Position numbers and translations under genes: made by a program. Below, in pieces: positions 2,052-50,486 of a stretch of DNA of 64,000 nucleotides. Position 1 is the first letter of the stretch. Each line of letters begins with the position of its first letter. This DNA is from Gemmatimonadetes bacterium SCN 70-22 (GTDB lineage: Bacteria > Gemmatimonadota > Gemmatimonadetes > Gemmatimonadales > Gemmatimonadaceae). The stretch spans positions 219,230-283,229 of the forward strand of contig MEDZ01000003.1 in NCBI GenBank assembly GCA_001724275.1, written 5' to 3'. Under the pieces are notes generated by a model. That model saw only the letters and a list, made by a program, of their open reading frames with translations, was not told where the DNA came from and searched no databases.

Positions 2052-3308
2052 ATGAACAAGCGCGATTTCCTGCGTACGCTCGGTGGCGCCTCGCTCGGCG
2101 TCTTCTTCGCTCCCGGACAACTGGCGCGATATGCGCGCCTCCCCGTCGACGCGCTCGCCCGGGACGAGGACTTCTGGGTCGGCATCCGCACGCGCTACCG
2201 CCTAACGCCTGACTACATCAACCTCGAGAACGGCTACTACTCGATGCAGGCGCAGGAGGTGCTCGAGCGCTTCATCGGGCACGTGCGCGACGTGAACCTG
2301 GAGGCGTCACACTACATGCGGACGCGCCAGTACCCGAACAAGGAGGCGGTGCGCACGCGCCTCGCCGCGCTGGCCGGCTGCGCCCCGGAGGAGCTCATCA
2401 TCACCCGCAACACCACCGAGTCGCTCGACACGGTGATCGGCGGGTTCGACTGGAAGGAGGGAGACGAGGCGGTGATGGCGGCGCAGGACTACGGCGCCAT
2501 GCTCGACATGTTCAAGCTGCAGGCGCGACGGTACGGGATGGTGAACCGCGTGGTGTCGCTTCCGATCGACCCGTCGAGCGACGACGAGATCGTGCAGCTG
2601 TACGCCAATGCGATCACGCCACGCACTCGGCTCCTGATGGTGTGCCACATGGTGAACATCACCGGACAGATCCTTCCCGTGCGGAAGATCGCGGACATGG
2701 CGCACGCGAGGGGGGTCCAGGTCATGGTCGACGGCGCGCATGCGCTGGCCCAGCTCGACTTCCGCATCCCCGACCTCGACGTGGATTACTACGGGGCATC
2801 GCTGCACAAGTGGCTGGGGACACCGCTGGGGGCGGGAATCCTCTACGTGCGCCGTGACCGCGTTTCCTCGCTGTGGCCGCTGTTCGGCGATTCGAGCTTC
2901 AAGGACGACGACATCCGGAAGCTGAACCACACCGGGACGCATCCCGTGCACACCGATCTCGCGATCGGCGACGCGATCGACTTCCACGAGGCCATCGGCA
3001 CGCCTCGCAAGGAGGCACGACTGCGATACCTGCAGAACTACTGGGTCTCGAAAGTACGCGGGATGCCGAACGTCATCCTAAACACACCGAGCGACCCGTT
3101 GCGCTCGTGCGCGATCGCCAACGTGGGCGTGGACGGGATGAAACCCGGTGACCTGGCGCGCACGCTGATGGAGAGACATCGCATCTGGACGGTGGCCATC
3201 GACGGTGCGGGCGTGCATGGTGTGCGGGTCACGCCTCACGTCTACACGACCGCAGCTGAGCTGGATGTCTTCGTGACGGCACTGCGCGAGATCGCGGCCC
3301 CCGGGTAG
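2052..3308 (+). CDS. Tat-exported class V aminotransferase (isopenicillin N epimerase-like)
   Basis: A 418-residue PLP enzyme of aminotransferase class V. The N-terminus MNKRDFLRTLGGASLGVFF is a Tat-type signal with Lys-Arg in place of Arg-Arg. The PLP lysine is Lys253 in SLHKWLGTPLGAG, and the PLP-binding Asp is in VMVDGAHALAQ. Family members include isopenicillin N epimerase-like and cysteine-desulfurase-like enzymes; the true substrate is unknown. Export of a PLP enzyme is unusual. The frame is open from 1929, but the first 41 codons are low-complexity and the ATG at 2052 begins the signal. The gene is divergent from the DUF5602 lipoprotein. Confidence 0.85.
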   Translation: MNKRDFLRTLGGASLGVFFAPGQLARYARLPVDALARDEDFWVGIRTRYRLTPDYINLENGYYSMQAQEVLERFIGHVRDVNLEASHYMRTRQYPNKEAVRTRLAALAGCAPEELIITRNTTESLDTVIGGFDWKEGDEAVMAAQDYGAMLDMFKLQARRYGMVNRVVSLPIDPSSDDEIVQLYANAITPRTRLLMVCHMVNITGQILPVRKIADMAHARGVQVMVDGAHALAQLDFRIPDLDVDYYGASLHKWLGTPLGAGILYVRRDRVSSLWPLFGDSSFKDDDIRKLNHTGTHPVHTDLAIGDAIDFHEAIGTPRKEARLRYLQNYWVSKVRGMPNVILNTPSDPLRSCAIANVGVDGMKPGDLARTLMERHRIWTVAIDGAGVHGVRVTPHVYTTAAELDVFVTALREIAAPG

Positions 3309-3387
3309 GGCCAGCCTCCCGGTGTGCCGGCAGGGCGAGTGCTGTTGGCAAGGGGGCGCCGTGCGGGAGTGAGTGCGCCGCCGGCCG

Positions 3388-3858
3388 CTACAGCGCCCGC
3401 ACCCGCTTCCAGTCCAGCCAGACCAGTACCGTGAAGAGCGTGATGGTCACCGCCGAGATGGCGCACCAGGGGCAGAACGTCTTCATGATGATGAACTCGG
3501 CGTACTTGAGCCGGAGCGTGAAGAGGAAGGCGGGATAGACGAGTGCCGCCAGCGCGATGGTGGGCCACCGGGCGGCGCTCCAGCGCTCCTGCGTCCCGAG
3601 AAGGCTGGTGACGAGGATGAGGGTGTAGCCCACGGCGCCGATGAAGGCGACATCCAGGCCGAGGAACCACCCCCACGAGGAGAGCTGCACCTGCTCGCAG
3701 CCGTGTCCCGCGCCGCAGCTCAGGGCGCCCATGAATCCCCGCTTCCAGAGGTGCAGGTAGGTCGCGACGCCGGCGTTCGCCAGTGCGAGGACGGCTATCA
3801 CCTGCCGAAGAATGGGGGACGGCGCGTCGGAGGTATCGGGCGCGTCGATGTCGCTCAT
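3388..3858 (-). CDS. Vitamin K epoxide reductase (VKOR) family membrane protein
   Basis: A 156-residue integral membrane protein with about four hydrophobic helices. It carries the VKOR signature: Cys48 and Cys54 in SCGAGHGCEQV, the conserved SSWGWFLGLDVAFIGAVGY loop and helix, and the quinone-site motif FCPWC (Cys129, Cys132). Bacterial VKORs reoxidise a DsbA-like thioredoxin and pass electrons to quinone, supporting disulfide formation in the envelope. No DsbA partner domain is fused or adjacent. The ATG at 3858 is chosen over the 3990 frame start because the extra 44 residues are not family-like. The gene is convergent with the aminotransferase. Confidence 0.88.
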   Translation of the reverse strand: MSDIDAPDTSDAPSPILRQVIAVLALANAGVATYLHLWKRGFMGALSCGAGHGCEQVQLSSWGWFLGLDVAFIGAVGYTLILVTSLLGTQERWSAARWPTIALAALVYPAFLFTLRLKYAEFIIMKTFCPWCAISAVTITLFTVLVWLDWKRVRAL

Positions 3859-7412: not shown

Positions 7413-8786
7413 CTATGCCTTGCGATCGATGCAGCCGGTGTAGAGCTGGTTGTTGCGCTCGGCTTGGGGAACCGGGAGGTTGAGATCCGGTCCGTACTGC
7501 GCGTTCTTGCGCGGATTGAGTCCGCCTTCGCCCGGGAATACCTGGGCGGCCGTGAAGCCGTAGAGGCGGATCATGCGGCGCAGGTCACCCAGGCGCTGTC
7601 CGCGCCCGAACGTCCAGAAGGCGCGCTCCCGGAAGAGAAGCTGCTGGCGCGCCGTCGTGGAGCCCGGGTCGGTGAGGGGCGGCATCCCCGAGATCGTCAG
7701 TGCGCCGATGTTGCTTGGCCCGGCGCGCAGGGCGTTGAGCGTCGTGAGCCAGGCCGCGTTTCCGGCCGCCAGCTGCGACTCGGCCAGGATCAACTGCGCA
7801 TCCACGTAGTTGGCGACGGGGACGGGCGAGTTGAAGGCCGGGAAGACACCCTGCTGGTCGTAGGGCGTCACGCCGTCGAACCCGAAGGGGACGCCCGTGC
7901 GCTTGGAGACCGGAACGCGCGGGTCCTTGGCCGAGACGAACGGCATCGCGTTGACGATGCGCCCGCCCTGGGAATCGGCGGAGTCCTGCACCGTGTAGCG
8001 ACGCGCGGAGATCGAGAGTCCCCAGATGAGGTTGTCCTCGATGCCCTGCGAGCCTGGCCAGGTGAGGTTGAAGGTGAAGGTCGCCGGCACCTTGTCCACG
8101 GCCGCCCCGGCCTCGGGTAGCTTGCCTAACGCAAGCAGCGCGCGCCCCCGTCCCACCTGTGCCGCGTAGCGTACGCGAGTGCTGATGGAATCGGCCCCCG
8201 TTCCCACCGCGACGAGGGCGGAGTCGAACGAGGCGAGCGCGATGTTGAAGGCCGTGGGGCCGTCGATCGCTGCGGCGATGTCGGGCGTCCCGGTGGACAG
8301 GTTGGCGTACGGCTGTCCGTTGCAGAAGTCGAGTGCGGACTGCAGCTCGGCGTAACCCTTGACGAAGAACATCTCGCCAATCCTGGCCCTGGCATTCGGG
8401 CTGTACGTCTGCAGGGCCTTGGCGGCCGCGTAGGCCTGGATGCGCGTGCGATGGATCTGGCGATAGGCCACGGTCACGAGCGAGTTCTGCTCGGTCACGT
8501 TGCGCTGGTCGGTCTCGTCGCGCTGCGTGAAGGTGTCGGCCGACTTCCACTCGTCGACGAGAAGGCCGCCGTAGAACCACGAGCTCTCGTCGAGGGCGGT
8601 CATGTACTTGAAGACCTTGATGGCGCCCACGCGCATTCCCTCGGCGCCGTCGGCCGAGTTGAGGTTGTCCGGGGCGATGATGTCGGGATCGGTGACGCCG
8701 AGCAGCCGGTCGCGGGAGCACGCGGTGAGCGCGGCCACCGCGGCCGCCAGGGCGACCGCCCGATATGTCGCGATGTATCGGTTCAT
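7413..8786 (-). CDS. susD: SusD/RagB family outer-membrane nutrient-binding lipoprotein
   Basis: 457 residues. A lipoprotein signal ends in the lipobox ALTAC. The body is alpha-helical with SusD-type features: DEWKSADTFTQRDE, the YRQIHRTRIQAYAAAKAL helix, and the C-terminal FRERAFWTFGRGQRLGDLRRMIRLYG region that marks RagB/SusD proteins. These proteins cap the SusC TonB channel and bind glycan or peptide substrates at the cell surface. The ATG at 8786 is chosen because GAGGTGA lies 8 bp upstream; an in-frame GTG at 8798 is the alternative. It starts about 22 bp after the susC-like stop, so the two form one operon. A CGTTAGGC motif (8124-8131) encodes Leu-Gly here. Confidence 0.9.
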   Translation of the reverse strand: MNRYIATYRAVALAAAVAALTACSRDRLLGVTDPDIIAPDNLNSADGAEGMRVGAIKVFKYMTALDESSWFYGGLLVDEWKSADTFTQRDETDQRNVTEQNSLVTVAYRQIHRTRIQAYAAAKALQTYSPNARARIGEMFFVKGYAELQSALDFCNGQPYANLSTGTPDIAAAIDGPTAFNIALASFDSALVAVGTGADSISTRVRYAAQVGRGRALLALGKLPEAGAAVDKVPATFTFNLTWPGSQGIEDNLIWGLSISARRYTVQDSADSQGGRIVNAMPFVSAKDPRVPVSKRTGVPFGFDGVTPYDQQGVFPAFNSPVPVANYVDAQLILAESQLAAGNAAWLTTLNALRAGPSNIGALTISGMPPLTDPGSTTARQQLLFRERAFWTFGRGQRLGDLRRMIRLYGFTAAQVFPGEGGLNPRKNAQYGPDLNLPVPQAERNNQLYTGCIDRKA

Positions 8787-12299: not shown

Positions 12300-13883
12300 A
12301 TGCTTCGCCAGAATTGCCGGGCCATCTCGCTGGTTTTCCTCGCCCTCCTGTCACCGCCGGCCACGATCGACGCCCAGGCGCCGGGGCGCGCCGACCTGCT
12401 CATCCGTGGCGGAACGGTGATCGATGGGACCGGGAGCGCGGCTCGCGTCGCTGACGTCGCCATCACGGGCGATCGCATCACCTTCGTGGGCGATGCGCGC
12501 CGGCAGGGAGTGCAGGGAGGGCGCGAGATGGATGCGCGCGGGCTCATCGTCGCCCCCGGCTTCATCGACCCGCACACGCACACCTACGGAGACCTGCAGA
12601 GCGACCGGGCCGAGCGTCGGATGAACGCCCCCTACCTCATGCAGGGGGTGACGACCGTGGTCGCGGGAAGCGACGGGGGAGGCCCGGTGGACGTGGCCGA
12701 CCACTTCGCGCGGTGGGAGCAGCGCGGGATCGGCACCAATGCCGCGCTGTTCGTCGGCTTCGGGACGGTGCGCGGCAAGGTACTGGGGATGTCATCGGCG
12801 GCGCCCAACGTGGACCAGCTCTCGCTCATGAAGGCGATGGTCGGGAAGGGGGTCGACGAGGGGGCGCTGGGGCTGAGCACGGGGCTGTACTACGCACCAC
12901 AGAGCTACGCAACGACCGAGGAGGTCATCGCCGTCGCCCGCGAGGCCGCGTCGCGCGGCGGCCTGTACGATTCCCACATGCGCGACGAGAGCTCGTACAC
13001 GATCGGCCTGCTGGGGTCGATCCGCGAGATCCTCCGCATCGGCAAGGAGGCTGGCCTACCGGTCCACATCGCCCACATCAAGGCGTTAGGCATAGATGTC
13101 TGGGGGCAGAGCGACAGCGTGATCGCCCTGGTGAACCGCGCCCGCCGGGACGGGCAGCGGGTGACGGCGGACCAGTACCCGTACACCGCCAGCGGGACGG
13201 CGGTCGGGGCATCGCTGCTCCCCCGCTGGGCGGAGGCGGGGGGGCGCGACTCGCTGCGCGCGCGGATCACGAATCCGGAGTACCGCGATCGCCTGGTGGC
13301 GGAGATGCAGAACAACCTGCGCCGCCGTGGCGGGGCCAAGTCGCTCCTGATCACGGGGGGGCGCGACCGGTCGCTGGTGGGGAAGACGCTCGACGACATC
13401 GCCAGGGCGCGCAATGCGGACCCGATCCTCACCGCGCTGGAGATCATCATGAACGGCGATGCCGGCGTCGCGTCGTTCAACATGAACGAGGACGACATCG
13501 TCCGCTTCATGCGCGAGCCGTGGGTGTTCACGGGTTCGGATGGCTCCGACGGACATCCGCGCAAGTACGGGACCTATCCGCACAAGCTGCGGGAGTATGT
13601 CCTGGCACGGAAGGTCCTCACCATGGAGCAGATGGTGCAGCGGTCGAGTCGCGAGGTGGCGCTGGCGCTCGGGATGGGAGAGCGCGGGACCCTGGCGCCG
13701 GGGTACATGGCCGACGTGATCGTCTTCGACACGGCGAAGGTCGCCGACCGCGCCACGTACGAGCACCCCGAGTTGCTGGCCGAGGGGATGCAGTACGTGA
13801 TCGTCAACGGGAAGCTGGCGGTCAGCGAGGGGAAGCTGACCGGGGCGCTGGCGGGACGCCCGGTGCGGAGGGCGAAGCCGTAA
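12300..13883 (+). CDS. Secreted N-acyl-D-amino-acid deacylase-type amidohydrolase
   Basis: 527 residues with a signal peptide (AISLVFLALLSPPATIDAQ). It belongs to the amidohydrolase superfamily, D-aminoacylase branch. Seen: the entry strand ADLLIRGGTVIDGTG, the metal motif PGFIDPHTHTYGD, SHMRDESS, HIAHIKALG, and the late motif TGSDGSDGHPRKYGTYP carrying the catalytic Asp. The C-terminal beta part reads GTLAPGYMADVIVFD. Such enzymes release D-amino acids or dipeptides from N-acylated forms. The HIAHIKALG stretch uses a rare TTA codon inside a CGTTAGGC motif (13084-13091). The next gene starts 10 bp downstream, so the two probably form an operon. Confidence 0.88.
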   Translation: MLRQNCRAISLVFLALLSPPATIDAQAPGRADLLIRGGTVIDGTGSAARVADVAITGDRITFVGDARRQGVQGGREMDARGLIVAPGFIDPHTHTYGDLQSDRAERRMNAPYLMQGVTTVVAGSDGGGPVDVADHFARWEQRGIGTNAALFVGFGTVRGKVLGMSSAAPNVDQLSLMKAMVGKGVDEGALGLSTGLYYAPQSYATTEEVIAVAREAASRGGLYDSHMRDESSYTIGLLGSIREILRIGKEAGLPVHIAHIKALGIDVWGQSDSVIALVNRARRDGQRVTADQYPYTASGTAVGASLLPRWAEAGGRDSLRARITNPEYRDRLVAEMQNNLRRRGGAKSLLITGGRDRSLVGKTLDDIARARNADPILTALEIIMNGDAGVASFNMNEDDIVRFMREPWVFTGSDGSDGHPRKYGTYPHKLREYVLARKVLTMEQMVQRSSREVALALGMGERGTLAPGYMADVIVFDTAKVADRATYEHPELLAEGMQYVIVNGKLAVSEGKLTGALAGRPVRRAKP

Positions 13884-13893
13884 CTTCCGGGGC

Positions 13894-16809
13894 ATGACGC
13901 CTCGTTTCCGCGCGGCTCCCTTGCCTCGGTCGTCCCGTCGCACGCGCGTCGTGCGGGGGCGGCTCCTGACGGTACTGGCCCTCGTCACCGCGCTGGCTGT
14001 GGGGGCACGGAGCGCCCGGGCGCAGGTTCCGATCCTCTACGCGCTCTCCGCGCAGCAGAATCCTCCGGGGATCCACTGGCGGCGCATCGACACGCCGCAC
14101 TTCACCGTTGTCTTTCCGCAGGTGCTCGACCGCGAGGCGCAACGGGCGGCCACGCTGCTGGAGCGGGCGTACGAGCCGCTGACTCGGTCGCTCGCCAGCC
14201 GGCCCGAGCGGATCCCCGTCGTGCTCAACAGCAGCTCGATGATGTCCAATGGCTTCGTGGCGTGGGGGCCGCGCCGTTCGCAGTGGTATGCGATGCCCAA
14301 CACCACGGTGGACATGATGGGGCCGGTGGAGTGGTATTCGCTCCTTGCGGTGCACGAAGGGCGCCACATCGTGCAGGAACGCGCGGTCCGTACCGGGATC
14401 ATCGGCATTCTCTCGCGACTCTTCGGCGACAACACGACGGCGTTCTTCGGCGGGGCGTTGTACTTCCCGGCGTGGTTCTGGGAAGGGGATGCGGTGGGGA
14501 TGGAGACCGCGCTCACCGCCGACGGCCGCGGGCGGCAGCCCAGCTTCGGGCAACGCATCCGCGCGCTCACGCTCGATGGGCGTCGCTATCCGTACTACCC
14601 GGCGTGGCAGGGATCCTACCGCACGTACTACCCCGATTGGTACGAGCTCGGCTACGCCCTCACGACGCACGTCCGCCGCACCTACGGCGATTCGGCCTGG
14701 CGACGCGTCATCGAGCGGGCGGCACGGAACCCCATCGCTCCGCAGGCGCTGGGCAGGGCGCTGGAGCGCGAGACGGGGCGGACGCTGGTGGAGCTGCATG
14801 GCGACGCGGCCAGGACGCTCGATTCACTGTGGCGCATGCAGCAGGCCACGATCGTCGAAACGCCGGCGCGCGTCCAGAATCATTCCGCGGCCGACTACCG
14901 CGAGTTCACGCTGCCGCAGTACGCCGCCGACGGGAGCATCATCGCCCTGTACCAGGACCTCGCCACCACCAAGCGGCTGGTACGTATCCGCAACGGGTCG
15001 GTCGAGGTGCTGCACGCCACCATCGGTCTCTATGGCGAGCTGCAATTCCAGGTGCGGGGCAAGACCGTCGTCTGGAGCGAGTACGAGGTGTCGCCGCGCT
15101 GGGGAGAAGAGAGCTACCTGGTGGTCAAGACGCTCGACCTGGAGTCGCGCACCGTGCGGCGCCTTACCGACCGGTCGCGCTACTTCGCCCCCGCGTTGTC
15201 TCCCGACGGCGCGCGCATCGCGGCCGTGCACTTCTCGCCCTCGCGCGAGGCGCGGATCGCCGTGCTGGACGCCGTGACCGGCGCCGAGCTCCGCCGCTTG
15301 CCTAACGAAGCGGGGCACTTCCTGGTGACCCCGGCGTGGGCCCCCGATGGGCGGGCGCTGTATGTCGTCGCGGTCGACGCGTCGAGGGGCAACGCGCTGG
15401 TGCGCCTGCGGCTCGACGGGTCGCCGGCCGATACGCTCATCCCCTTCACCCACGCGACCATCTCTCGGCCGGTGGCGACGGCGACCCACGTCTACTTCGG
15501 GAGCACGCGATCCGGGGTGGACAACATTCATGCGCTCGACCTCGCGACGGGAGCCATTCTGCAGGTCACCTCGCGACGGTTGGGGGCCATGTGGCCGAGC
15601 GTCTCGCCCGGGGGCGACTCGCTCACCTTCAGCGACTACTCGGTTCACGGCTACGACGTGGCGACGATGGCGCTCGACTCCTCGCGTTTCACTCCCGTGA
15701 CGCTTGGCGCCGCCCCGACTCCACCGTTCGCCGCAGCACTGCAGGGGCAGGAGCGCGACGGCAACCTCCTCGACGCCCTCCCCGCAGGGGGATGGGCGTC
15801 GCGCCCCTTCACCGGCTGGTCGCGCCTGTTCGACTTCCACTCGCTCTCCCTTGCCCCCACGAGCGATGGGGTGAACACGGGGCTCGCCTTCGAGTCGCGC
15901 AACCTCTTGAACACGCTGGGCGTGATCATCGGCCCGACGTTCAACACGAACGAGGGCACGCTCGCCCTCGAGGGAGGGGTGAGCTACGCGGGGCTCCCCG
16001 TCATCGCCGACGTTTCCGGGCGGCTCGGGACGCGCGCCTCCACCTTCAGCGATACGCTCGGGGCGCAGCAGGTGTACACCTGGCGCGAGCGGTCCGCGGT
16101 CGCGAGGTTCCGCCTTCCCCTCACCCGCCTGCGCGGGCAGGTGCGCCAGTCGCTGGTGGCGAGCGCCGCCCTGGGACGCACGCACATCGGGGAGCAGCCG
16201 GTCGCCTTCCGATTCGAGAACGGGAATGGGGACTTCGGGACGGCCCGCTACACCCTTACCGCGTCGACCGTGCGCGCCGCGCCCCACCGGGCGCTGTATC
16301 CCGTCGGCGCGGTGCTCAACGCGGTGTACTCCCACACGCCGTTCGGCGGCGACTACAGTTCGCACCAGGTATCGCTCAGCGGGGCCGCGTACCTCCCCGG
16401 CCTTCGTCCCGAGCATGCCCTGGTGATCGACGCCGGTCGCGAGGACGAACGGCCGGGCAACTATCGCTTCTCGTCGTGGCTGCGATTCCCGCGCGGGTAC
16501 GAGACGCGATATCACGAGGCGCTCGTGCGGGGAGGGGCGACGTATCACCTGCCGCTCTTCTACCCGGATGCCGCGTTAGGCAACTGGCTCTACCTGCGGC
16601 GCGTGCAGGGCAACCTCTTCGGTGATGCCGGGGTGGGTGCGGCGCGTGATGGCACGCAGCGCGTGCGCTATCGCTCCGTCGGGAGCGAGGTCACGGTCGA
16701 CGTCTCGCCGTTCGGATTGCGTGCCACCGTGCGCCTCGGGGTGCGCGTGACGCGCACGCTGACGAATGGCGGGCGCACCGTGGCGGAGCCGGTCGTGATC
16801 GTACAGTGA
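13894..16809 (+). CDS. HExxH peptidase-like domain fused to a TolB-like propeller and a C-terminal beta-barrel
   Basis: 971 residues with a signal peptide ending ARAQ. Residues about 50-300 hold a gluzincin-like site: His154-Glu-Gly-Arg-His158 in LLAVHEGRHIVQ, and Glu197 in WFWEGDAVGME, 38 residues later, as the likely third zinc ligand. Residues about 320-620 are propeller blades (SPDGARIAAVHF, APDGRALYVV, SPGGDSLTFSD). The last 300 residues are alternating aromatic/glycine strands typical of an outer-membrane barrel (TGLAFESRNLL, NWLYLRRVQGNLFGDAG, RATVRLGVRV). A surface-anchored or barrel-tethered peptidase is the natural reading. I recognise no named family for the whole chain. A CGTTAGGC motif (16574-16581) again encodes Leu-Gly. 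Confidence 0.75.
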   Translation: MTPRFRAAPLPRSSRRTRVVRGRLLTVLALVTALAVGARSARAQVPILYALSAQQNPPGIHWRRIDTPHFTVVFPQVLDREAQRAATLLERAYEPLTRSLASRPERIPVVLNSSSMMSNGFVAWGPRRSQWYAMPNTTVDMMGPVEWYSLLAVHEGRHIVQERAVRTGIIGILSRLFGDNTTAFFGGALYFPAWFWEGDAVGMETALTADGRGRQPSFGQRIRALTLDGRRYPYYPAWQGSYRTYYPDWYELGYALTTHVRRTYGDSAWRRVIERAARNPIAPQALGRALERETGRTLVELHGDAARTLDSLWRMQQATIVETPARVQNHSAADYREFTLPQYAADGSIIALYQDLATTKRLVRIRNGSVEVLHATIGLYGELQFQVRGKTVVWSEYEVSPRWGEESYLVVKTLDLESRTVRRLTDRSRYFAPALSPDGARIAAVHFSPSREARIAVLDAVTGAELRRLPNEAGHFLVTPAWAPDGRALYVVAVDASRGNALVRLRLDGSPADTLIPFTHATISRPVATATHVYFGSTRSGVDNIHALDLATGAILQVTSRRLGAMWPSVSPGGDSLTFSDYSVHGYDVATMALDSSRFTPVTLGAAPTPPFAAALQGQERDGNLLDALPAGGWASRPFTGWSRLFDFHSLSLAPTSDGVNTGLAFESRNLLNTLGVIIGPTFNTNEGTLALEGGVSYAGLPVIADVSGRLGTRASTFSDTLGAQQVYTWRERSAVARFRLPLTRLRGQVRQSLVASAALGRTHIGEQPVAFRFENGNGDFGTARYTLTASTVRAAPHRALYPVGAVLNAVYSHTPFGGDYSSHQVSLSGAAYLPGLRPEHALVIDAGREDERPGNYRFSSWLRFPRGYETRYHEALVRGGATYHLPLFYPDAALGNWLYLRRVQGNLFGDAGVGAARDGTQRVRYRSVGSEVTVDVSPFGLRATVRLGVRVTRTLTNGGRTVAEPVVIVQ

Positions 16810-18140: not shown

Positions 18141-18755
18141 GTGTCCCTCGTCCGCCCGCCGTCCCACTACGACCGCACGTATTTCGACAAGTGGTATCGC
18201 CATCCCAGGCACCGGGTGAAGTCGCCGCTCGACATCGAACGACAGCTGCGCTTCGTCGTGGCGGCGACCGAGTACCTGTTCGAGCGCCCGGTGCGAAAGG
18301 TGCTCGACGTGGGAGCGGGGGAGGGACACTGGTCGTTGGCGCTCCGAAAGGTCCGGCCCGGCGCGCGCTACTACGGCGTCGACGCCAGTGAGTACGCCGT
18401 CGAACGCTTTGGCCGGAAGCGCAACATCCGCCTCGGGAGCTTCGGCACAGTGGGCACGCTCGGGCTCCCCGACGACTTCGACCTGGTGCTCTGCTGCGGG
18501 GTGCTCAACTACGTCGCCCCGCGGGAGCTGGCGGCGGGGCTGAAGGCACTCGGGGCACTGTGCGTCGGTGCTGCGTACTTCGAGGTGTTCACGAGCGCCG
18601 ACGATGCCACGGGGGACTTCACCAGGGCGCAGGCGCGCGCCCCCGGCTGGTGGCGCGCGCTCTTCAGGCGCAACGGGTGGAGCGCGCTCGGGATGCACCT
18701 GTACCTTCCCACGCCCATCGCGGGGGTCGCGGCGGCGCTCGAGCGAGCGCGCTGA
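18141..18755 (+). CDS. Class I SAM-dependent methyltransferase
   Basis: 204 residues from a GTG start. The SAM-binding motif I is VLDVGAGEGHWSLAL (about residue 54-68), followed by the acidic ARYYGVDAS strand and DFDLVLCCGVLNYV as motif IV. The N-terminal HYDRTYFDKWYR is common in small standalone methyltransferases. The substrate cannot be predicted. The frame is open far upstream (from 16929), but that part overlaps galM antisense and is a shadow. The GTG at 18141 is the first start beyond galM and has CAGG just before it. Confidence 0.82.
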   Translation: MSLVRPPSHYDRTYFDKWYRHPRHRVKSPLDIERQLRFVVAATEYLFERPVRKVLDVGAGEGHWSLALRKVRPGARYYGVDASEYAVERFGRKRNIRLGSFGTVGTLGLPDDFDLVLCCGVLNYVAPRELAAGLKALGALCVGAAYFEVFTSADDATGDFTRAQARAPGWWRALFRRNGWSALGMHLYLPTPIAGVAAALERAR

Positions 18756-18774
18756 CCGGGCCTCGCGGGGCATC

Positions 18775-18810
18775 GCCTAACGACTTGCCTAACGCCTTGC
18801 CTAACGCCTC
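18775..18810. repeat. Three tandem 12-bp units each carrying GCCTAACG
   Basis: GCCTAACG occurs at 18775-18782, 18787-18794 and 18799-18806, exactly 12 bp apart, with linkers ACTT, CCTT and CCTC. The array sits between the convergent methyltransferase and TPR genes. The third copy overlaps the TPR stop codon: TAG on the minus strand at 18803-18801. The same 8-mer is scattered through the window. Confidence 0.85.
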
Positions 18811-19613
18811 GCCTTCTCGAGGGCCGGCACCAGTTCATTGCGCACCCAGGCGTTGCCCGGTTCCAGCGCGAGGGCCCGGACGTATGCCGCCCTGGCCTGG
18901 TCCACCTTGCCTTGCCTGGCATAGAGGAGGCCGAGCCAGGCGTACGTCTCGGCGTGCCCCCACCAGGGTGCTGGTGGTGACGGGACGTCGCCGGCGAAGA
19001 GGGAGAGGGCGTGTTGCAGCTCTTGCTCGGCCCGGCCAAGCCCTCCCCCGAACAGCCGTGGCTTGAACATCGCGGAGACCCCGCGCAGCATCCACACCCG
19101 CGGGTTGTTGGGACCCATCGTCGTGGCCTCGTCGAGGAGCCGGGACGCCCGCGGGCCCAGCCGGAACGTCGCCGTCGCGCCGGACAGGCCGATGAGTTGG
19201 CCCAGGGCGGCCGACCGCAGGGCCCGAGTTTCGGGCCAGGGGAGCGCCGCATCGGAGCGCTCGAGGTCGCGCCCCGCCTCCTCGAACGACCGCTTCGCGA
19301 GCGCGCGGTCGCCACCGCTGGCGACCAGGATGGATGCCTTGCGGTACAGGACGAAGCCGCGGTAGTGCAGCGCCACCGGATCGTCAGGCGCCGTTGCCAG
19401 CTCTCGATCAAGAAAGGCAATCGCACCATCGTAGTCGGCCGGGCGGTTGCTCTGCAGCGCGCGGTCGATCAGGGTGCGCATCGAGTCAGCCACCACGGCG
19501 GGGAGCGACGCCGGCGGCTGCGACCAGGCCGCTCCCGTCCAGATGGCGAGGCTGGCGGCCAGGGCGACAAGGCGCATGAGGGGGTGTAGCCACCGAGCGC
19601 GTGCGGCGTGCAT
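18801..19613 (-). CDS. Exported tetratricopeptide-repeat protein
   Basis: 270 residues with a signal peptide (RLVALAASLAIWTGAAWSQ). The rest is helical with TPR-like pairs: DYDGAIAFLDRELATAPDDPVALHYRGFVLYRKA (split near residue 80), and near the C-terminus AWLGLLYARQGKVDQARAAYVRALALEPGNAWV. It probably acts as a periplasmic scaffold. The start at 19613 follows the glycosyltransferase stop by 8 bp; an ATG at 19577 would give a shorter signal. It is the last gene of the GH1-HAD-glycosyltransferase operon. Its TAG stop lies inside a GCCTAACG repeat. Confidence 0.78.
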   Translation of the reverse strand: MHAARARWLHPLMRLVALAASLAIWTGAAWSQPPASLPAVVADSMRTLIDRALQSNRPADYDGAIAFLDRELATAPDDPVALHYRGFVLYRKASILVASGGDRALAKRSFEEAGRDLERSDAALPWPETRALRSAALGQLIGLSGATATFRLGPRASRLLDEATTMGPNNPRVWMLRGVSAMFKPRLFGGGLGRAEQELQHALSLFAGDVPSPPAPWWGHAETYAWLGLLYARQGKVDQARAAYVRALALEPGNAWVRNELVPALEKARR

Positions 19614-20689: not shown

Positions 20690-21471
20690 CAGACCTCCTG
20701 CGGTTCGGCCAGCTGGCGGATGACCTCTCGCCAGCCGGCGACCCCGGGGATGGGCACGCACTCCGCACGAGGGAGCACGCGCAGGGCAGGGTGCCACGTG
20801 CCGTCGTCGTGACCGATCACGAACCGACGTTCAGCGGCAAGGAGGAGGGGGACGTCGTTGTCGCCGTCTCCTGCGGCGGCGACGCGCCCGATGGGGCGTC
20901 CCAGCCGTCGCAGGCAATCTAACACCGTGCGGACGCCACGTCCCTTGTCGGCTCCGCCCGTGACGCAGAGCCACGTCCCTCCCGAGGCCACCGCCCGCCC
21001 GCCCCGGCGCAGGGTGTTGGCCAGCCGGTCCAGCGAATCCGCCGCCTGGCCCGGCGCCGGACGCAACGCGAGCGAGTAGCGTCGGCCGACGCCGGGCTCG
21101 GCGACATGCTGGTCGACGAAGGCGGTGCCTAACGATTCGGCCGCCGCCCGCGCCTCGGCGCGCAGCTCCTGCGCCGGCGCGCCCACGGCCACCACGCACC
21201 ATTCGCGGTCATCGATCAGCTCGTGCGCGCCGAGGTCACCCGTGGCCTCGTCCCACGGCAGGGCGATCACCGCGCCGTTCTCCGCCACCACCGGGCCATC
21301 GAGCCCGAGGTCGCGCTGGTTGCGCGACAACTCGAGGATGGTGCGACTCGAGGCGAGGATCACCGTGACGCGATCGCGGACCTGCGCCAGCTCCGTGGGG
21401 CGCATCGCGTAGCGCCCCTCCCGGTCGAGCAGCGTCCCGTCGACATCCGAGAACAGGAGGGTGGGAGGCAT
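20689..21471 (-). CDS. HAD-IIB phosphatase, mannosyl-3-phosphoglycerate phosphatase-like
   Basis: 260 residues. HAD motif I is FSDVDGTLLDREG at the N-terminus, the motif II region is ILASSRT, and motif IV is AAGDGDNDVPLL. The cap contains PVVAENGAVIALP, as in the mannosyl-3-phosphoglycerate phosphatase subgroup, which dephosphorylates mannosylphosphoglycerate to the compatible solute mannosylglycerate. The exact substrate remains inferred. Start ATG 21471 overlaps the stop of the GH1 gene (TGATG). ESLGTAF contains a TTA codon in a CGTTAGGC motif (21127-21134). Confidence 0.8.
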   Translation of the reverse strand: MPPTLLFSDVDGTLLDREGRYAMRPTELAQVRDRVTVILASSRTILELSRNQRDLGLDGPVVAENGAVIALPWDEATGDLGAHELIDDREWCVVAVGAPAQELRAEARAAAESLGTAFVDQHVAEPGVGRRYSLALRPAPGQAADSLDRLANTLRRGGRAVASGGTWLCVTGGADKGRGVRTVLDCLRRLGRPIGRVAAAGDGDNDVPLLLAAERRFVIGHDDGTWHPALRVLPRAECVPIPGVAGWREVIRQLAEPQEV

Positions 21472-33321: not shown

Positions 33322-34343
33322 TCTGCCCCGGACATCGCGGGGGTGGCCGGCGCCGAGGCCGGCGCCGAGGCCGGCGCACCCGTCAGCGTCCCCGGCTGGC
33401 GGATGAGGGCGCGCAGCGCCAGCACGTTGCGCCCGGTGCGCGGGCCGATGTAGACCATGTCGTTCTCCTCGACGCGGAAGATGCGCCCCTCGCGCGCCGC
33501 CTTCGTGGCCCCGACACCGGGGAGCGCCAGGATGTCGTCGCGCCCCGCCAGCCGGTCGTAGCCGAAGTCGGTGAGCAGGATGACGTCGGGGTTGGACTTG
33601 GCGATGACCTCGGGCGACGTGAGCGGGAGCATGCCGCGCGCCGAGTCGTCGATGGCCATGCGCCCCCCGGCCCAGCGCACCATCCTGGCCGCCGTGCTGC
33701 GTCCCGTCATCACGAGGTAGGCGTTGTTCTGGCGCCCGTAGTGGATCACCGCCACGCTCGGCGTGTCCGCCTGTTGCGCGGCGGCGGCGAGGGCCCTGCC
33801 CATGTCGGCGTCGAGCTGGGCGCAGAGCGAGTCGGCCGCCTTCTCCTTGTGGAAGAAGGCCCCCATGTCGCGGAAGAGGACCTTGGCCCCCTCGATGTCG
33901 TCCGAGGGCATGTCGAAGTCCTTCATGGGGATGTCGAGCGCCTCGAGCTGCCGCACCACATGCTCGGGGGCCACGTTGGTCGGCCCGCCGCGCAGGATCA
34001 TCGTCGGCCTGGCCGCCAGCATCCCCTCGAGCGACAAGGCGCGATGATATCCCACCGTGGGGAGCTGCTTCGCCTCCGGCGGATACACCGACGAGATGTC
34101 GACCGCGACCAGGTCCTCCTGGGCGCCTAACGCGTAGATGATCTCGGTGTACTGCTTGGAGACCGAGACGAGGCGCTGGGCGTGGTCACCCCTGGCGTCG
34201 GCGTTGCCGAATCGCCCGCACGCGGCGGCGCCGGCGAGCAGCGCCAGCGCGGCAAGCGCGGCGCGCGCGCGCCGCCGCCCGCCGTGCCGGGGCCGGTGCG
34301 CCGCCGCTGCGCCGGGGCGAGGGCGCGTCGCGCCGGCGCTCAC
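33318..34343 (-). CDS. hmuT: Heme/cobalamin/siderophore-type substrate-binding lipoprotein
   Basis: 341 residues from a GTG start that overlaps the TonB-receptor stop (GTGA at 34343-34340). A lipobox AGAAAC closes the signal peptide. The body is a class III binding protein: RLVSVSKQYTEIIYALGA, DISSVYPPEAKQLPTVGYHRALSLEGMLAARPTMIL (split), and SNPDVILLTDFGYDRLAG. GYHRALSLE is typical of HmuT-like heme binders. The C-terminus is a Pro-Ala-Ser-Ala repeat (GAPASAPASAPATP) from a 12-bp tandem repeat. YALGAQ uses TTA within a CGTTAGGC motif (34125-34132). Confidence 0.87.
   Translation of the reverse strand: MSAGATRPRPGAAAAHRPRHGGRRRARAALAALALLAGAAACGRFGNADARGDHAQRLVSVSKQYTEIIYALGAQEDLVAVDISSVYPPEAKQLPTVGYHRALSLEGMLAARPTMILRGGPTNVAPEHVVRQLEALDIPMKDFDMPSDDIEGAKVLFRDMGAFFHKEKAADSLCAQLDADMGRALAAAAQQADTPSVAVIHYGRQNNAYLVMTGRSTAARMVRWAGGRMAIDDSARGMLPLTSPEVIAKSNPDVILLTDFGYDRLAGRDDILALPGVGATKAAREGRIFRVEENDMVYIGPRTGRNVLALRALIRQPGTLTGAPASAPASAPATPAMSGAE
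33345..33380. repeat. 12-bp tandem repeat at the 3' end of the binding-protein gene
   Basis: The unit GGCCGGCGCCGA occurs at 33345-33356 and 33357-33368, with a third copy at 33369-33380 changed in its last bases. It encodes the Ala/Ser/Pro tail of the binding protein in frame. Confidence 0.8.
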
Positions 34344-37580: not shown

Positions 37581-39988
37581 GCCCGCGCGACATCCTCCCC
37601 TGGGTGCCGGAAAGCCACCCGCCGCTGACCGTCCCGGCCATGGAGGGCGGCGCGGCGGCAGGCCACGCCCCACGCAGCGAAGCCGACGGCGCGGTGACGG
37701 TGGACGCCCGGCGCCGAGCGCTCCTCAAGCTGCTCGGGATGGGGGGGCTCGTCGTCGCTGCCGGGCCACTCGGCGCGCGGCGGCTCGAGGCGGCCGATGC
37801 CTACCTCACGGCGCACGGCGAGGCCGACCCGTGGGAGGCGCATGCGTTCGTGCACATCGCCGACGACGGGATCGTCACCATCACCTGCCACCGGTCGGAG
37901 ATGGGACAGGGGATTCGCACGACGATGCCGATGATCATCGCCGACGAGATGGAGGCCGACTGGTCGAAGTGCCGGGTCGTGCAGGCGGACGGTGATGAGA
38001 AGAAGTACGGCTCGCAGAACACCGACGGCTCCACGAGCATCCGGGATTTCCTGTTCAAGTACCGCGAGGCGGGGGCCACGGTGCGCGCCCTGCTGGAGGA
38101 CGCGGCGGCGAAGGAGTGGGGGGTGAGCCCGCAGAGCGTGAGGGCACGCAACGGCGTCGTGGTGCACGAGGCGACGGGGCGCTCGAAGCCGTTCGGGGCC
38201 CTGGTCGCCACGGCGCGCGCGCTGGCGCTGCCGTCCGGGGCGCGCATCCGCGTCAAGGCGCCGGCCGAGCGCCGGTGGCAGGGGGGGAAGATGCCGTCGA
38301 TCGACCTCGTCCCGGTCACGACCGGCAGGGCGACGTACGGTGCGGACGTGATCCTCCCGGGAATGCGGACGGCGGTGATTGCCCGCCCGCCGGTGTGGGG
38401 GGGGAAGGTGGCGAGCGTGGACGACCGGGCCGCGCTCGCGGTGCCGGGGGTGGAGCGCGTGGTGCGGATTCCCGAGGCGCCGATGCCGGGGGCGTATCTC
38501 CCGTTAGGCGGGGTGGCGGTGGTGGCGCGCAACACGTGGGCCGCCATCAAGGGGCGCGACGCCCTGAAGGTCACCTGGGACGATGGGCCGAATGCCGGCT
38601 ACGACAGCGCAGCCTACAAGGCGACGCTCCTGGGGTCGGTGCGCGCGCCCGGCACGCCGGGGCGCACCAACGGCGCGGTCGGGCCGGCGCTCGCCTCCGC
38701 CAGCCGCAAGGTGAGCGCGGAGTATTACGTCCCGCACCTGTCGCATGCGCAGATGGAGCCGGTGGCGGCGGTGGCCAGGGTGGAGGGCGGGAAGGTGGAG
38801 GCGTGGGCGCCGACGCAGTCTCCCCAGGATGCCCGCAACACGATCGCCCAGTTCCTGCAGGTCGACGCCGCCAACGTCACCGTGCACGTGACGCTGCTGG
38901 GCGGGGCATTCGGCCGGAAGTCGAAGCCCGACTTCGTCTGCGAGGCGGCGTACCTGGCGCGCGCGGTGGGGGCGCCGGTGCGCGTGCAGTGGACGCGCGA
39001 AGACGACCTGCGGAATTCGTACCTGCATTCGGTGGCCGCGCACCACCTGGAGGCGGGACTCGACGCGAACGGGAAGGTGACCGCGTGGCTGCATCGCTCG
39101 GCCTATCCGTCGATCAGCGCGACGTTCGCCCCCAATGTCGCGGGGCCGGGCCCCGACGAGCTGACCAACGGCGCCAGCGACATCCCGTTCGACATCCCCA
39201 ACGTGAGCGTGGAGGTGTGTCCCGCGGCGGCGCATACGCGCATCGGGTGGTATCGGAGCGTCAACGCCATCCACCACGGCTTCGCCATCGGTTCCTTCGT
39301 GGACGAGCTGGCGCACGCGGCGGGGAAGGATCCCGTGGAGTTCCTCGTGGCCCTCCTGGGGGAGGACCGGCGCGTCGACCTCTCGCAGCACGGGCTGGTG
39401 GCACCGGCCAGCAACTACGGCGCCAGCTGGACCGACCACCCGCTGGACAGCGGACGCGCGCGTCGCGTGCTGCAGCTGGCGGCCGAGAAGGCGGGGTGGG
39501 GGTCGCCCCTGCCGCGCGGGCGCGGGCGCGGCGTGGCCGTGCACCGGAGCTTCCTGAGCTACATCGCGATGGTGGTGGAGGTCGAAGTGCTCCCCGATGG
39601 CACGGTCCTCGTCCCGCGTGCCACGGTCGGCGTCGACGCCGGCTTCGTCGCCAACCCCGATCGCGCCCGGGCGCAGATGGAGGGGGCGCTGGTGATGGCG
39701 ATGAGCAACACGCTCTACAGCGAGATCTCGTTCCGCGAGGGGCGGGTGGTGCAGGGGAACTACCGCGACTACCAGGTCACGCGGATGCGCGCCGCGCCGC
39801 GCGTGGTCGACGTGCACATCGTGCCGGGCGAGGGACTCCCGGGCGGGATCGGCGAACCGGGGGTCCCGCCGGCGGGGGCGGCGATTGCCAACGCGATCTT
39901 CGCCGCCAGCGGGGTGCGCGTGCGTGAGTTGCCGGTGGGGAGGCAGCTGGCGGGGTGGCAGTCGAGGGCCTCCGCCAGCGAGTTCTAG
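37577..39988 (+). CDS. Molybdopterin-binding subunit of an IorB-type aldehyde/N-heterocycle oxidoreductase
   Basis: 803 residues. A twin-arginine-like signal lies unusually deep, at about residues 45-75 ([20 protein letters not shown]). The molybdenum-subunit segments are present: [26 protein letters not shown] (split), [32 protein letters not shown], and the final [18 protein letters not shown] with the catalytic Glu. The IorB type is a single large subunit working with the small 2Fe-2S subunit and a membrane cytochrome. Substrates of the type are N-heteroaromatics or aldehydes. PLGGVAV uses TTA in a CGTTAGGC motif (38502-38509). Confidence 0.88.
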
Positions 39989-46614: not shown

Positions 46615-48174
46615 TCAGGCCGAGGCCAGCGCGTACAACAGGTCCACGTACGACCGCGTCGCACCGTCGATGCCCGACACCTTGGGATTCGCCGACTCGA
46701 TGACGAAGTACTCGTCAGGCGCGTGCGCCCCTCCGCCGTGCCCGAGGCCGAAGATCCCGGCCGGGAGGTTGAGCGGCGCGCTGGTGAAGGTCGATCCCGG
46801 CCACGATCCGGCCAGTCGTGGCCAGAGGATCGGGTCGATTCCCGCCTTGCGGTAGGCGGCGAGCATCCCCTTCACCAGACGCGAGTCGGCGGGGGTCTCG
46901 GTGGGGTCGTATCCCCCGGTCATGTTCACCTCGATGTCGCCGAAGCCGCGCTGCTGCAGGTGCCGCTCGAGCAGCGCGAGGGTTCCCTTGGCGGTCATGT
47001 CGGGGACCAGCCGCATGTCGATCTTGGCCACGGCGCGGTGGGGGAGGATCGTCTTCCCGCCAGGACCGGTGTAGCCCCCCACCAGTCCCTCGATGTTGAT
47101 GGTGGGCTGCGAGACGAGGCGCTCCAGCGACCTGGCCCACGGCTCGTCCGCGATCCAGCGTTGCACACCCAACGCCTTCTTCGTCGCCTCCTCGTTCTTG
47201 CGCGGGATGGCTGCCTCGAGGATGCGGCGCTGCTCGGCGCTGAGCGGGCGGACCTTGTCGAAGAAGCCCTCGACCGCCGGGGTATGGCCGTCGGGCTCGA
47301 TGAGGGTGTTGAGCGCCTGCACGAGGTGCCAGGCCGGGCTGTCGATGTGGGCGGCCAGCGACGAGTGGACATCCAGCCTGGGGCCGCGTCCCCACTTCTC
47401 CCCGGTGGCGACCAGCTCGAGCTCGCAGATCCCCTTGGCGCCGAGGTTCACCTCCACCGTCCCGTCGAGTCCCTGGCTGCCTAACGGGATGATGATGCCG
47501 ACGCTGCGGCGCAACGCGGCCTCGACCTCCGGCTTGAAGACGACCTGCGAGAAGTTGGGCGAGCCGATCTCCTCCTCGCCCTCGCAGACGAGGACGATGT
47601 TGACCGGCGGCTTGCGTCCGGCGGCCCGGAAGGCGCGGAGCGCGGCGAGGAAGGCGACCTGTGGTCCCTTGGTGTTCGTCGCCCCGCGCCCGATCATCAC
47701 CTTGCCCACGCCGGGCCGGTCGACGATGCGTCCCTCGAGCGGGGGCGAACTCCACTCCCTGGGATCGAACTGCTTCACGTCGTACATGAAATACACGGCG
47801 AGCGTCGTGGGCGCCCCGGCGTCGAGGGTGGCGAAGACGCCGGCCTTGCCCGTGGTGGGGACGAGCTGGACGTGCTCGAAGCCGGCGTCGCGCGCCAGCC
47901 TGGCCATGTACTCCGGTCCCTGGGGGTAATTCAGGTTCTCGGCGGCGATGGACGGGAGCGCGATCCACTCGCGCAGCATCCTGACCGTCGCGTCGTGCTG
48001 CGCGGCGATCTGCGCAACGACGATGTCCTGCTCGATCGCCCGCGAGAATGGAATGAGCGGGATGCCGTCCTTGCCCATCGCGAGGACCGCCGCCCCCGTC
48101 ATGGCGCCGTGCAGGAACTCCCGTCGGTTGACCCCTGCCGGGGATGGCGTCCCGCTCTCGAACTTCGAATCCAC
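46615..48174 (-). CDS. Tat-exported M20 family peptidase-like protein with altered metal ligands
   Basis: 519 residues from a GTG preceded by GGAGG. The Tat signal is NRREFLHGAMTGAAVLAMG at about 16-34. The M20 fold is clear: EGEEEIGSPN near 198-206, the RLVPDM and dimerisation region, and HGGGAHAPDEY near the end. But the first metal motif, normally G-H-x-D, reads FMYDVKQ (Met130, Asp132), and the bridging Asp of GRGATDxKG is Asn167 (GRGATNTKG). Two of the usual zinc ligands are therefore replaced. It could be a mononuclear, differently metallated or non-catalytic relative. Confidence 0.83.
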   Translation of the reverse strand: MDSKFESGTPSPAGVNRREFLHGAMTGAAVLAMGKDGIPLIPFSRAIEQDIVVAQIAAQHDATVRMLREWIALPSIAAENLNYPQGPEYMARLARDAGFEHVQLVPTTGKAGVFATLDAGAPTTLAVYFMYDVKQFDPREWSSPPLEGRIVDRPGVGKVMIGRGATNTKGPQVAFLAALRAFRAAGRKPPVNIVLVCEGEEEIGSPNFSQVVFKPEVEAALRRSVGIIIPLGSQGLDGTVEVNLGAKGICELELVATGEKWGRGPRLDVHSSLAAHIDSPAWHLVQALNTLIEPDGHTPAVEGFFDKVRPLSAEQRRILEAAIPRKNEEATKKALGVQRWIADEPWARSLERLVSQPTINIEGLVGGYTGPGGKTILPHRAVAKIDMRLVPDMTAKGTLALLERHLQQRGFGDIEVNMTGGYDPTETPADSRLVKGMLAAYRKAGIDPILWPRLAGSWPGSTFTSAPLNLPAGIFGLGHGGGAHAPDEYFVIESANPKVSGIDGATRSYVDLLYALASA

Positions 48175-49818: not shown

Positions 49819-50486
49819 GCGGTGACTCCCGCGATCGGGAGCGGCTTGGCGCCGACGCCGTCGAGCGTGCGGCAGGTCCCGGTGCCGACTTGCGCCCCCA
49901 GGGCGAGGTCCCATGCGGCGGGCGAGGCGGCCCAGTGCGCCATCAGGGCGACGGCGACGTGCGAGGCGCCTAACGGGTCCGGGAGGCGTTCGCCGGGGAC
50001 CGCGTCCAGCGCGGCGGTGACCAGCTCGCGGCGTGCCGCGAGGTCGAGTTGCGCGAACGGCTTCCGCCGCTTCTTCTGGGCGAGGAGGTCGAGCCCCTCC
50101 AGCTGCGCCTGCCATGCCGGTGCCGGGTCTGGGGGGAGGTAGCGGATGTCGGAGTAGCCGTAGCCGTGCATCTCTTCGGCGACCGGATCGTAACCATTCA
50201 CCCAGGCGACGAAGGCCGTGACGGCGGCGGCGCGCCCGGCGGCCCCCAACGATTCCGGGAGGACCGCCTCGCCGAGGGCGGCGAGCGTCTCGCGATCGAA
50301 GCCGGCGTTGCGTGACGGGCGCCGCTCCCCGGCCTCACCGCGTCCTCCCGCGGAGGATGGGTTGCAGCCGACGGTGGTGGCGGCGGCGCCGGCGGCGATG
50401 GCGCCCGCGACCTTGAGGAAGCCGCGGCGTGACGGCGAGGGACCCGGGAGGTGCGTGGGGTCGGGCGGGGCGGGTTGGTCGGGCAC
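49815..50486 (-). CDS. Gluconate 2-dehydrogenase subunit 3 family Tat lipoprotein
   Basis: 223 residues. SRRGFLKVAGAIAAGAAATTVGC is a twin-arginine signal that ends in a lipobox Cys. The rest matches the small subunit-3 family: FDRETLAALGEAVLPESLG, YDPVAEEMHGYGYSDIRYLPPDPAP (split). These subunits chaperone and export the flavoprotein subunit, here encoded directly downstream with a 4-bp overlap. DPLGAS uses a TTA codon within a CGTTAGGC motif (49968-49975). Confidence 0.87.
   Translation of the reverse strand: MPDQPAPPDPTHLPGPSPSRRGFLKVAGAIAAGAAATTVGCNPSSAGGRGEAGERRPSRNAGFDRETLAALGEAVLPESLGAAGRAAAVTAFVAWVNGYDPVAEEMHGYGYSDIRYLPPDPAPAWQAQLEGLDLLAQKKRRKPFAQLDLAARRELVTAALDAVPGERLPDPLGASHVAVALMAHWAASPAAWDLALGAQVGTGTCRTLDGVGAKPLPIAGVTA

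Follow-up and report, generated by a model that had tools for sequence, protein, structure and literature searches.

Why should one 8-bp word, GCCTAACG, stand three times in a row where two genes of Gemmatimonadetes bacterium SCN 70-22 converge, with one of the copies serving as a stop codon? The array lies in a 64,000-nt stretch of that genome, the whole of which we analysed (hereafter, the window), and a sequence-only reading had taken it for a phased binding site built from a dispersed motif. The three copies follow one another at exact 12-bp steps, as that reading had stated (18775–18782, 18787–18794 and 18799–18806, all on the plus strand), and the third indeed provides the TAG stop codon (18803–18801, minus strand) of a gene for a 270-aa TPR-repeat protein (18801–19613, minus strand; Pfam TPR_14, 1.6e-12). 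The convergent gene on the plus strand (18177–18755) encodes a methyltransferase-domain protein (Methyltransf_23, 1.9e-11); its 5′ limit is not a called start, and its stop codon is the TGA at 18753–18755. The gap between the two genes comprises 45 bp (18756–18800), of which the array, said to fill it, occupies only the right-hand part. Because 12 is a multiple of three, copies 1 and 2 contribute two further TAGs in frame with the TPR gene on the minus strand.

The array has the features of a simple tandem repeat. TRF delimits it at 18775–18814, with a period of 12, 3.3 copies, 92% matches and the consensus GCCTAACGCCTT; the spacers ACTT, CCTT and CCTC belong to the 12-bp repeat unit, as tandem duplication would give. 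Twelve is also the commonest period that TRF reports for the window, with 8 of its 20 rows, and seven of those eight repeats do not contain GCCTAACG. The sequence-only reading had proposed looking for arrays elsewhere: similar 12-bp arrays exist in G079, which we take to be Gemmatirosa kalamazoonensis, at other places (C3:1005369–1005436 and C4:108118–108149), but the exact spacing pattern, GCCTAACGNNNNGCCTAACG, has no second occurrence in the window's own genome (G000). At the aligned position we compared two relatives. G089, a member of the same genus with 73% DNA identity at the locus, has a single copy, the stop-codon one, which aligns to 18799 and also provides the TAG with which the gene of G089 stops, whereas array copy 1 has no match in the alignment; at the corresponding gene end of G395 (78% identity), GCCTAACG was not found. 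The array as such is lost in both relatives, an outcome that the earlier reading had named as speaking against a bound site, but one copy has kept its position in G089.

Close pairs of the word were counted in ten genomes and set against uniform random placement with rounded genome sizes. The own genome has 2 same-strand pairs with a gap of up to 30, both of them in the array, against 4.0 expected; such pairs number 13 against 11.1 in G089 and 17 against 16.1 in G244; they are in excess in G079 (84 against 41.3), where several are plain tandem units, and depleted in all six genomes of genera g23 and g27 (9 against 50.8 in G199; 24 against 46.5, 8 against 30.7, 8 against 30.1, 5 against 28.5 and 7 against 17.9 in the others). 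In none of these ten genomes do convergent pairs within 30 bp outnumber chance expectation (11 against 20.6 expected in G079, 0 against 5.5 in G089), and with no such excess a role as a hairpin terminator is unsupported. Copies of the word at stop codons are common: they make up 13 of the 87 sites in G000, 18 of the 163 in G089 and 23 of the 263 on contig C2 of G079. All gene and stop-codon counts are approximate and differ slightly from one tally to another, since the gene calls come from a simple script using ORFs and GC3. In G000, 9 of 24 TAA stops and 6 of 124 TAG stops lie inside GCCTAACG. Stop codons are a favoured seat because the word itself contains TAA or TAG.

We conclude that the array is very probably an ordinary 12-bp tandem triplication, made in this lineage, of an iterated 8-mer that was seated at the TPR stop codon; it would be harmless, because the repeat length is divisible by three and every copy brings an in-frame TAG of its own. 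The other reading, a regulator-binding array with helical phasing at a gene end, could point to the three copies where convergent genes end and to the frequency of stop-codon copies elsewhere, but the latter is explained by the TAA or TAG within the word, and the single copy in G089, the empty gene end of G395 and the lack of an excess of either close pairs in the own genome or convergent, hairpin-like pairs make it extremely unlikely. Nor does the proposed placement of the copies on one face of the DNA hold other than loosely, since a 12-bp step is about 51 degrees off the 10.5-bp turn of B-DNA. As a functional unit, the phased array is rejected in view of the period-12 TRF rows, the relatives and the pair counts. 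What stands of the bound-site idea is the dispersed word, which is enriched and kept above background.

This dispersed word is the main finding of our analysis; it is real and lineage-specific. In the window, GCCTAACG has 16 matches against 1.19 expected, far above chance, which bears out the dispersed motif of the earlier reading; none of 100 shuffles reaches 16, and all 16 GCCTAA hexamers of the window fall within the word. Outside the array it occurs on the plus strand at 2200–2207, 8124–8131, 15300–15307, 21127–21134, 34125–34132, 47479–47486 and 49968–49975, and on the minus strand at 13084–13091, 16574–16581, 38502–38509 (conserved in L172, with 83.5% DNA identity), 48558–48565, 50797–50804 and 56299–56306. 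The whole genome (4.70 Mb) contains 1100 copies (582 and 518 by strand), as compared with 173 (88 and 85) of the reversed control pattern. The word is non-palindromic, its complement being CGTTAGGC, and no description of it was found among the papers listed in searches of open-licence full texts, covered mostly by their titles and the beginnings of their abstracts.

Among 395 Gemmatimonadota genomes, 24, picked by eye from the 395 rows, have a high count (more than 1.5 times that of the reversed control); 17 of them belong to the window's family (f1), six to family f2 and one to family f3. The 17 high genomes of the window's family represent nine genera and carry 709 to 4469 copies, whereas the remaining genomes of the family carry 1 to 68, against 26 to 638 of the control. 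The count reaches 4469 in the 7.5 Mb of G079 and 3754 in the 4.3 Mb of G199, and the density ranges from one copy per 1.1 kb (G199) to one per 4.3 kb (G000). G228, assigned to genus g23, has three copies, the other three sampled members of that genus having 2745–3754; this reflects either a recent loss or a misplaced genome. Comparison of the GlgA protein as a test of relatedness failed to tell high genomes from low ones, because good matches were patchy. Within G079, the density differs little between C2 (5.3 Mb; 263 copies in 460 kb) and the two contigs of 1 Mb, C3 and C4 (113 in 160 kb). Counts for this genome come from an early tally that included the content-overlapping stretches L027 and L028 and from later ones in which L027 was excluded and L028 was used for strand and GC skew only. 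The two stretches reflect content that contig C1 (20952 bp) has in common with the start of C2, and C1 additionally contains a 66-bp stretch, with a hairpin-like core between GCCTAACG/CGTTAGGC ends, that is repeated 15 kb apart.

The prominence of the word is also evident when all 8-mers are ranked. By z-score, GCCTAACG is the top 8-mer in the samples of G000, G089, G079 C2, G199, G241 and G244, and on C3 and C4 of G079 it is second (80 versus 85) to the overlapping GTTAGGCA; the top z-scores of high samples range from 29 to 114. The scan listed words with at least 12 copies, and three small samples fall below that threshold: G101, with 7 copies of GCCTAACG in 60 kb, and G029 and G108, with 9 and 6 copies, respectively, in 40 kb each. 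No alternative iterated 8-mer of like strength was found in four low genomes sampled at 100 kb each, where the top z-scores are only 8–18, and these four samples therefore give no sign of dialects. After masking of the word itself, variants with a changed end base stay enriched (GCCTAACA, 41 against 0.8 expected in G079; ACCTAACGA, 10 against 0.2 in G000; CCCTAACGA, 12 against 0.3 in G089), so recognition looks graded, with a CCTAAC core and G preferred at both ends.

Two side observations concern other repeated sequence. Samples of G089 contain further iterated words, ACTCTGACC/TCAGAGTCA (25–27 copies) and AATTTGGTT (11 copies), which are perhaps a small dispersed repeat family. In genus g41 of family f2 (L140–L144), copies of GCCTAACG lie upstream of a gene for a 297-aa sigma-factor-like protein and in the end of aroB, both genes of L140 being named by eye from their translations; the copies of L140 recur at similar positions in other g41 genomes, and the stretch between them contains TGTGGAT words, which we take to resemble DnaA boxes. 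An operator was considered here and, for the motif pair within aroB of L140, rejected, as that pair is coding; another pair lies upstream of the sigma-factor gene.

On C2 of G079, the one replicon examined in this way, its strand is unrelated to GC skew over 24 stretches (Spearman −0.13, p 0.55), the skew being small and serving as a proxy for an unmapped origin. Most copies lie within genes, where the orientation opposite to the gene outnumbers the same orientation (41 to 19, 88 to 30 and 151 to 114) and no bias towards gene termini was found (KS p 0.44–0.90). In G000 and G089 (both of genus g1) and G079, the in-gene registers are mostly nCG-TTA-GGC and CCT-AAC, and in this way the word accounts for a large part of the rare TTA codons in called genes (132 of the 181 in G079, 80 of 136 in G089 and 38 of 78 in G000). 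The share is smaller in G199 (16 of 55), G241 (11 of 35) and G244 (8 of 22), and it is zero in the low genomes G019, presumably Gemmatimonas aurantiaca (0 of 18), and G004 (0 of 4).

The word is also kept between relatives more often than words in general. Over 168 kb aligned between G000 and G089 (76.2% identity; 3 of 97 alignments were left out as overlapping), it is kept at 15 of 30 sites, compared with a mean of 0.171–0.172 for all 4205 8-mers (P 3.6e-5); with 103 of the 4205 kept at a rate of at least 0.45, this conservation is high and not unique. Taken together, an abundance far above chance and retention above background suggest that some factor recognises the word. Short-range avoidance is seen in some genomes: at thresholds of our choosing, stretches of G199 contain no interval below 100 bp against 7.3 expected, and those of G241 one interval below 300 bp against 10.5. 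Little or no such avoidance is seen in G000, G089, G244 and G079, a genome in which the word is about as dense as in genus g27.

A further clue to the word's origin may come from integrons, whose attC sites have parts named the R box and the L box. The word satisfies the attC R box pattern RYYYAAC, and in 14 of the 24 attC candidates from the window's family it is the R″ box, with 8/8 identity, making it the commonest R box; G occupies position 8 in 23 of the 24. These candidates come from 8 of the 20 IntI regions scanned; some are doubtful, and many contigs end near IntI. In G158, ten candidates form a run beside IntI (L165, 11550–18370), and in G079 five do so on contig C3 (L153, 1900–5960). 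The portion of PMC9024848 cited here describes a 1.1-Mb integron-bearing replicon in Gemmatirosa kalamazoonensis. Among low genomes of family f2, L145 (G137:C5) and L146 (G113:C2) carry GCCTAACG nearly all on one strand, every 0.4–2 kb, with ends such as GCCTAACGGATCGCGCTTAAGC, in the manner of integron cassette arrays; L147 (G002:C43) and L148 (G255:C14), also of f2, look like cassette arrays by spacing, with copies nearly all on one strand every 0.3–2 kb. In the window's family, IntI scores over the curated cut-off in all 11 high genomes tested and also in 11 of the 15 low genomes tested (G228 included); in the high f2 genomes G108, G132 and G040, it does not.

The dispersed copies themselves are a different matter. 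On G000 C3 and G089 C9 no inverted second R box was found within about 40–150 bp of the dispersed sites, the nearest convergent pairs being 829 bp and 159 bp apart, respectively, and we therefore rule out that the dispersed sites of these two contigs are attC sites or integron scars. In G079, some pairs are 58–139 bp apart.

The window's genus has a second word, TTGCAGCTG (degenerate form TTGC[AG][GC]CTG), which is found 43 times in 459 kb of G000 and 80 times in 395 kb of G089 and no more than 0–2 times in each of 11 other samples; its variants TTGCGGCTG and TTGCACCTG are also raised. It is kept at 9 of 16 sites aligned between the two genomes. As an L box, TTGCAGCTG is present in 9 of 10 attC candidates of G158 and 4 of 5 of G079, whereas the sole candidate of G089 has TTGCAGTTG in its place. 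The two words are unlinked along the genome, with median distances between them of 3.2 and 1.4 kb. Of the copies, 29 of 43 and 48 of 80 lie in an L-Q-L/Q-L-Q register, and given this share and the degeneracy of the word, codon effects may contribute to its abundance. Two other accounts of the second word were discarded: an origin in PstI-type avoidance, as CTGCAG falls little short of expectation (0.86 of the expected number in each of the two g1 genomes), and a palindrome, as the 12-mer in question (TTGCAGCTGCAA) does not occur in the samples.

What, then, is the dispersed word for? To our knowledge, the only families with established DNA uptake sequences are Neisseriaceae and Pasteurellaceae, and it is these sequences that GCCTAACG most calls to mind: it is not a palindrome, occurs densely and without strand bias where tested, is tolerated in genes, looks graded and is present or absent between sister genera. 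We tentatively propose, at a little under an even chance, that it works like an uptake sequence accumulated by biased recombination, and that it may serve DNA exchange as a tag of self-recognition. On this view, natural transformation would include a component with a preference for DNA fragments that carry the word, alleles with it would displace alleles without it, and it would build up on every replicon at places where protein coding leaves room for it. Here we infer recognition by a protein, uptake as the process and biased recombination as the drive. We do not file the word as an uptake sequence, because inverted pairs are not in excess, gene ends are not preferred and no receptor emerged from the survey of GspH-type pilins. 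ComEC was found in 32 of 33 genomes, without separating high from low; being nearly universal, it does not decide the matter. Of the genomes examined for GspH-type pilins, 11 of the 14 high ones and 12 of the 17 low ones have them. None of ComEC, IntI and GspH-type pilins separates high from low genomes, and each was rejected as the determining gene as it occurs in both groups. If the word is uptake-like, the phylum offers a natural experiment, in an environmental lineage with sister genera on and off, on how such words arise, spread and vanish.

Three other processes could fill a genome with an 8-mer. Methylation-dependent repair or conversion inside the cell, without any uptake, might make and keep an iterated word, as proposed for sequences like HIP1. 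The genomic look is similar, as HIP1 is likewise abundant and lineage-variable with deviations biased to its first and last nucleotides (PMC4390886, in the part cited), and the near-variants GCCTAACA, ACCTAACGA and CCCTAACGA also differ at their ends. Yet HIP sites are palindromic and tied to a methyltransferase, whereas GCCTAACG is not palindromic, and the short-range avoidance is not an obvious product of repair acting on each site autonomously; we consider such an origin unlikely. A Chi- or KOPS-like word for recombination or segregation, suggested by an iterated 8-mer at one per 1.1 to 4.3 kb, is very unlikely: near-absence from sister genera would be unusual for words of this kind, the strands are close to balanced genome-wide (582 and 518, over contigs of unknown orientation), and the expected leading-strand bias is not seen in G079 with its small GC skew standing in for the unmapped origin.

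The link to integrons could be read more literally. The dispersed copies might be attC R boxes that IntI binds as double-stranded DNA, akin to 'attG', the term for genomic cassette landing places, or uptake might have been selected for cassette ends and have filled the genome as a by-product. The R″-box identity and the nearly invariant G at position 8 favour this link, as do the cassette ends headed by GCCTAACG in L145 and L146, the occurrence of IntI in every high genome tested of the window's family and the presence of TTGCAGCTG in most attC candidates of G158 and G079. Set against them, the dispersed sites of G000 and G089 are not attC sites, the two words are unlinked, IntI is found in most low genomes tested of the family and does not reach the cut-off in the high f2 genomes G108, G132 and G040, the abundance of TTGCAGCTG may owe something to codon effects and the only attC candidate of G089 has TTGCAGTTG instead; on this balance, we regard either form of the link as unlikely. 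The identity with the R box may be a coincidence, or the tag may have been borrowed from integron cassettes. Were it borrowed, Gemmatimonadota might be an independent third lineage with uptake sequences, whose word would channel cassettes into the cell for capture: cells would prefer DNA with attC R boxes (in the window's genus, also with the L-box word), and the genome would be filled with the same words through biased recombination. This fuller scenario, drawn from the pattern of words and boxes, is decidedly unlikely as it stands. The word being identical with the integron core, whether DNA uptake and the capture of cassettes are connected can be put to a direct test.

Earlier reports allow a closer comparison of our preferred reading, that of an uptake-like word, with the known cases. 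Uptake sequences number hundreds to thousands per genome (PMC2346458), with up to 5918 copies of kingDUS in 2.4 Mb (PMC3630211), a range into which the counts of GCCTAACG fall. They are described as lying within ORFs, as non-palindromic and as free of orientation bias (PMC1939737), with one orientation prevailing in reading frames (PMC2346458). Convergent close pairs reportedly abound in every genome that has a DUS dialect (PMC3630211) and make up ~10% of uptake-sequence sites (PMC1939737). Even spacing, which we count in favour of the uptake-like reading for genera g23 and g27, is disputed for uptake sequences, being cited in one place and played down in another (PMC1939737).

Comparisons with known systems thus place the array and the word differently. 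The array resembles slippage-type short tandem repeats in its 12-bp unit, which includes the spacer, in its 92% matches and in having the commonest period of the window; unlike them, it carries a word that is iterated across the genome, together with three in-frame stop codons. With the integron attC core, the word shares its sequence, as the commonest R box of the family's attC candidates, but its dispersed sites in G000 and G089 stand without a nearby second R box and within genes, at registers that coding tolerates, and a high count does not track the presence of IntI. With HIP1 and the alternate HIPs of cyanobacteria, it has in common an iterated, genome-wide 8-mer that varies among lineages and deviates at its ends (PMC4390886, as far as the cited part goes), but it is not a palindrome. 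Compared with the DUS of Neisseriaceae and the USS of Pasteurellaceae, the candidate word GCCTAACG belongs to a different phylum and has an 8-bp core; its inverted pairs are not in excess, it lacks the gene-terminus bias of the Pasteurellaceae USS and, in contrast to DUS, it shows no dialect in the samples of four low genomes. In other respects the likeness is close: these are short, non-palindromic words present in hundreds to thousands of copies, equal on both strands, tolerated in genes with one orientation favoured in reading frames, restricted to particular lineages and, as in Simonsiella muelleri, which has two uptake words in one genome according to the cited part of PMC3630211, sometimes accompanied by a second word.
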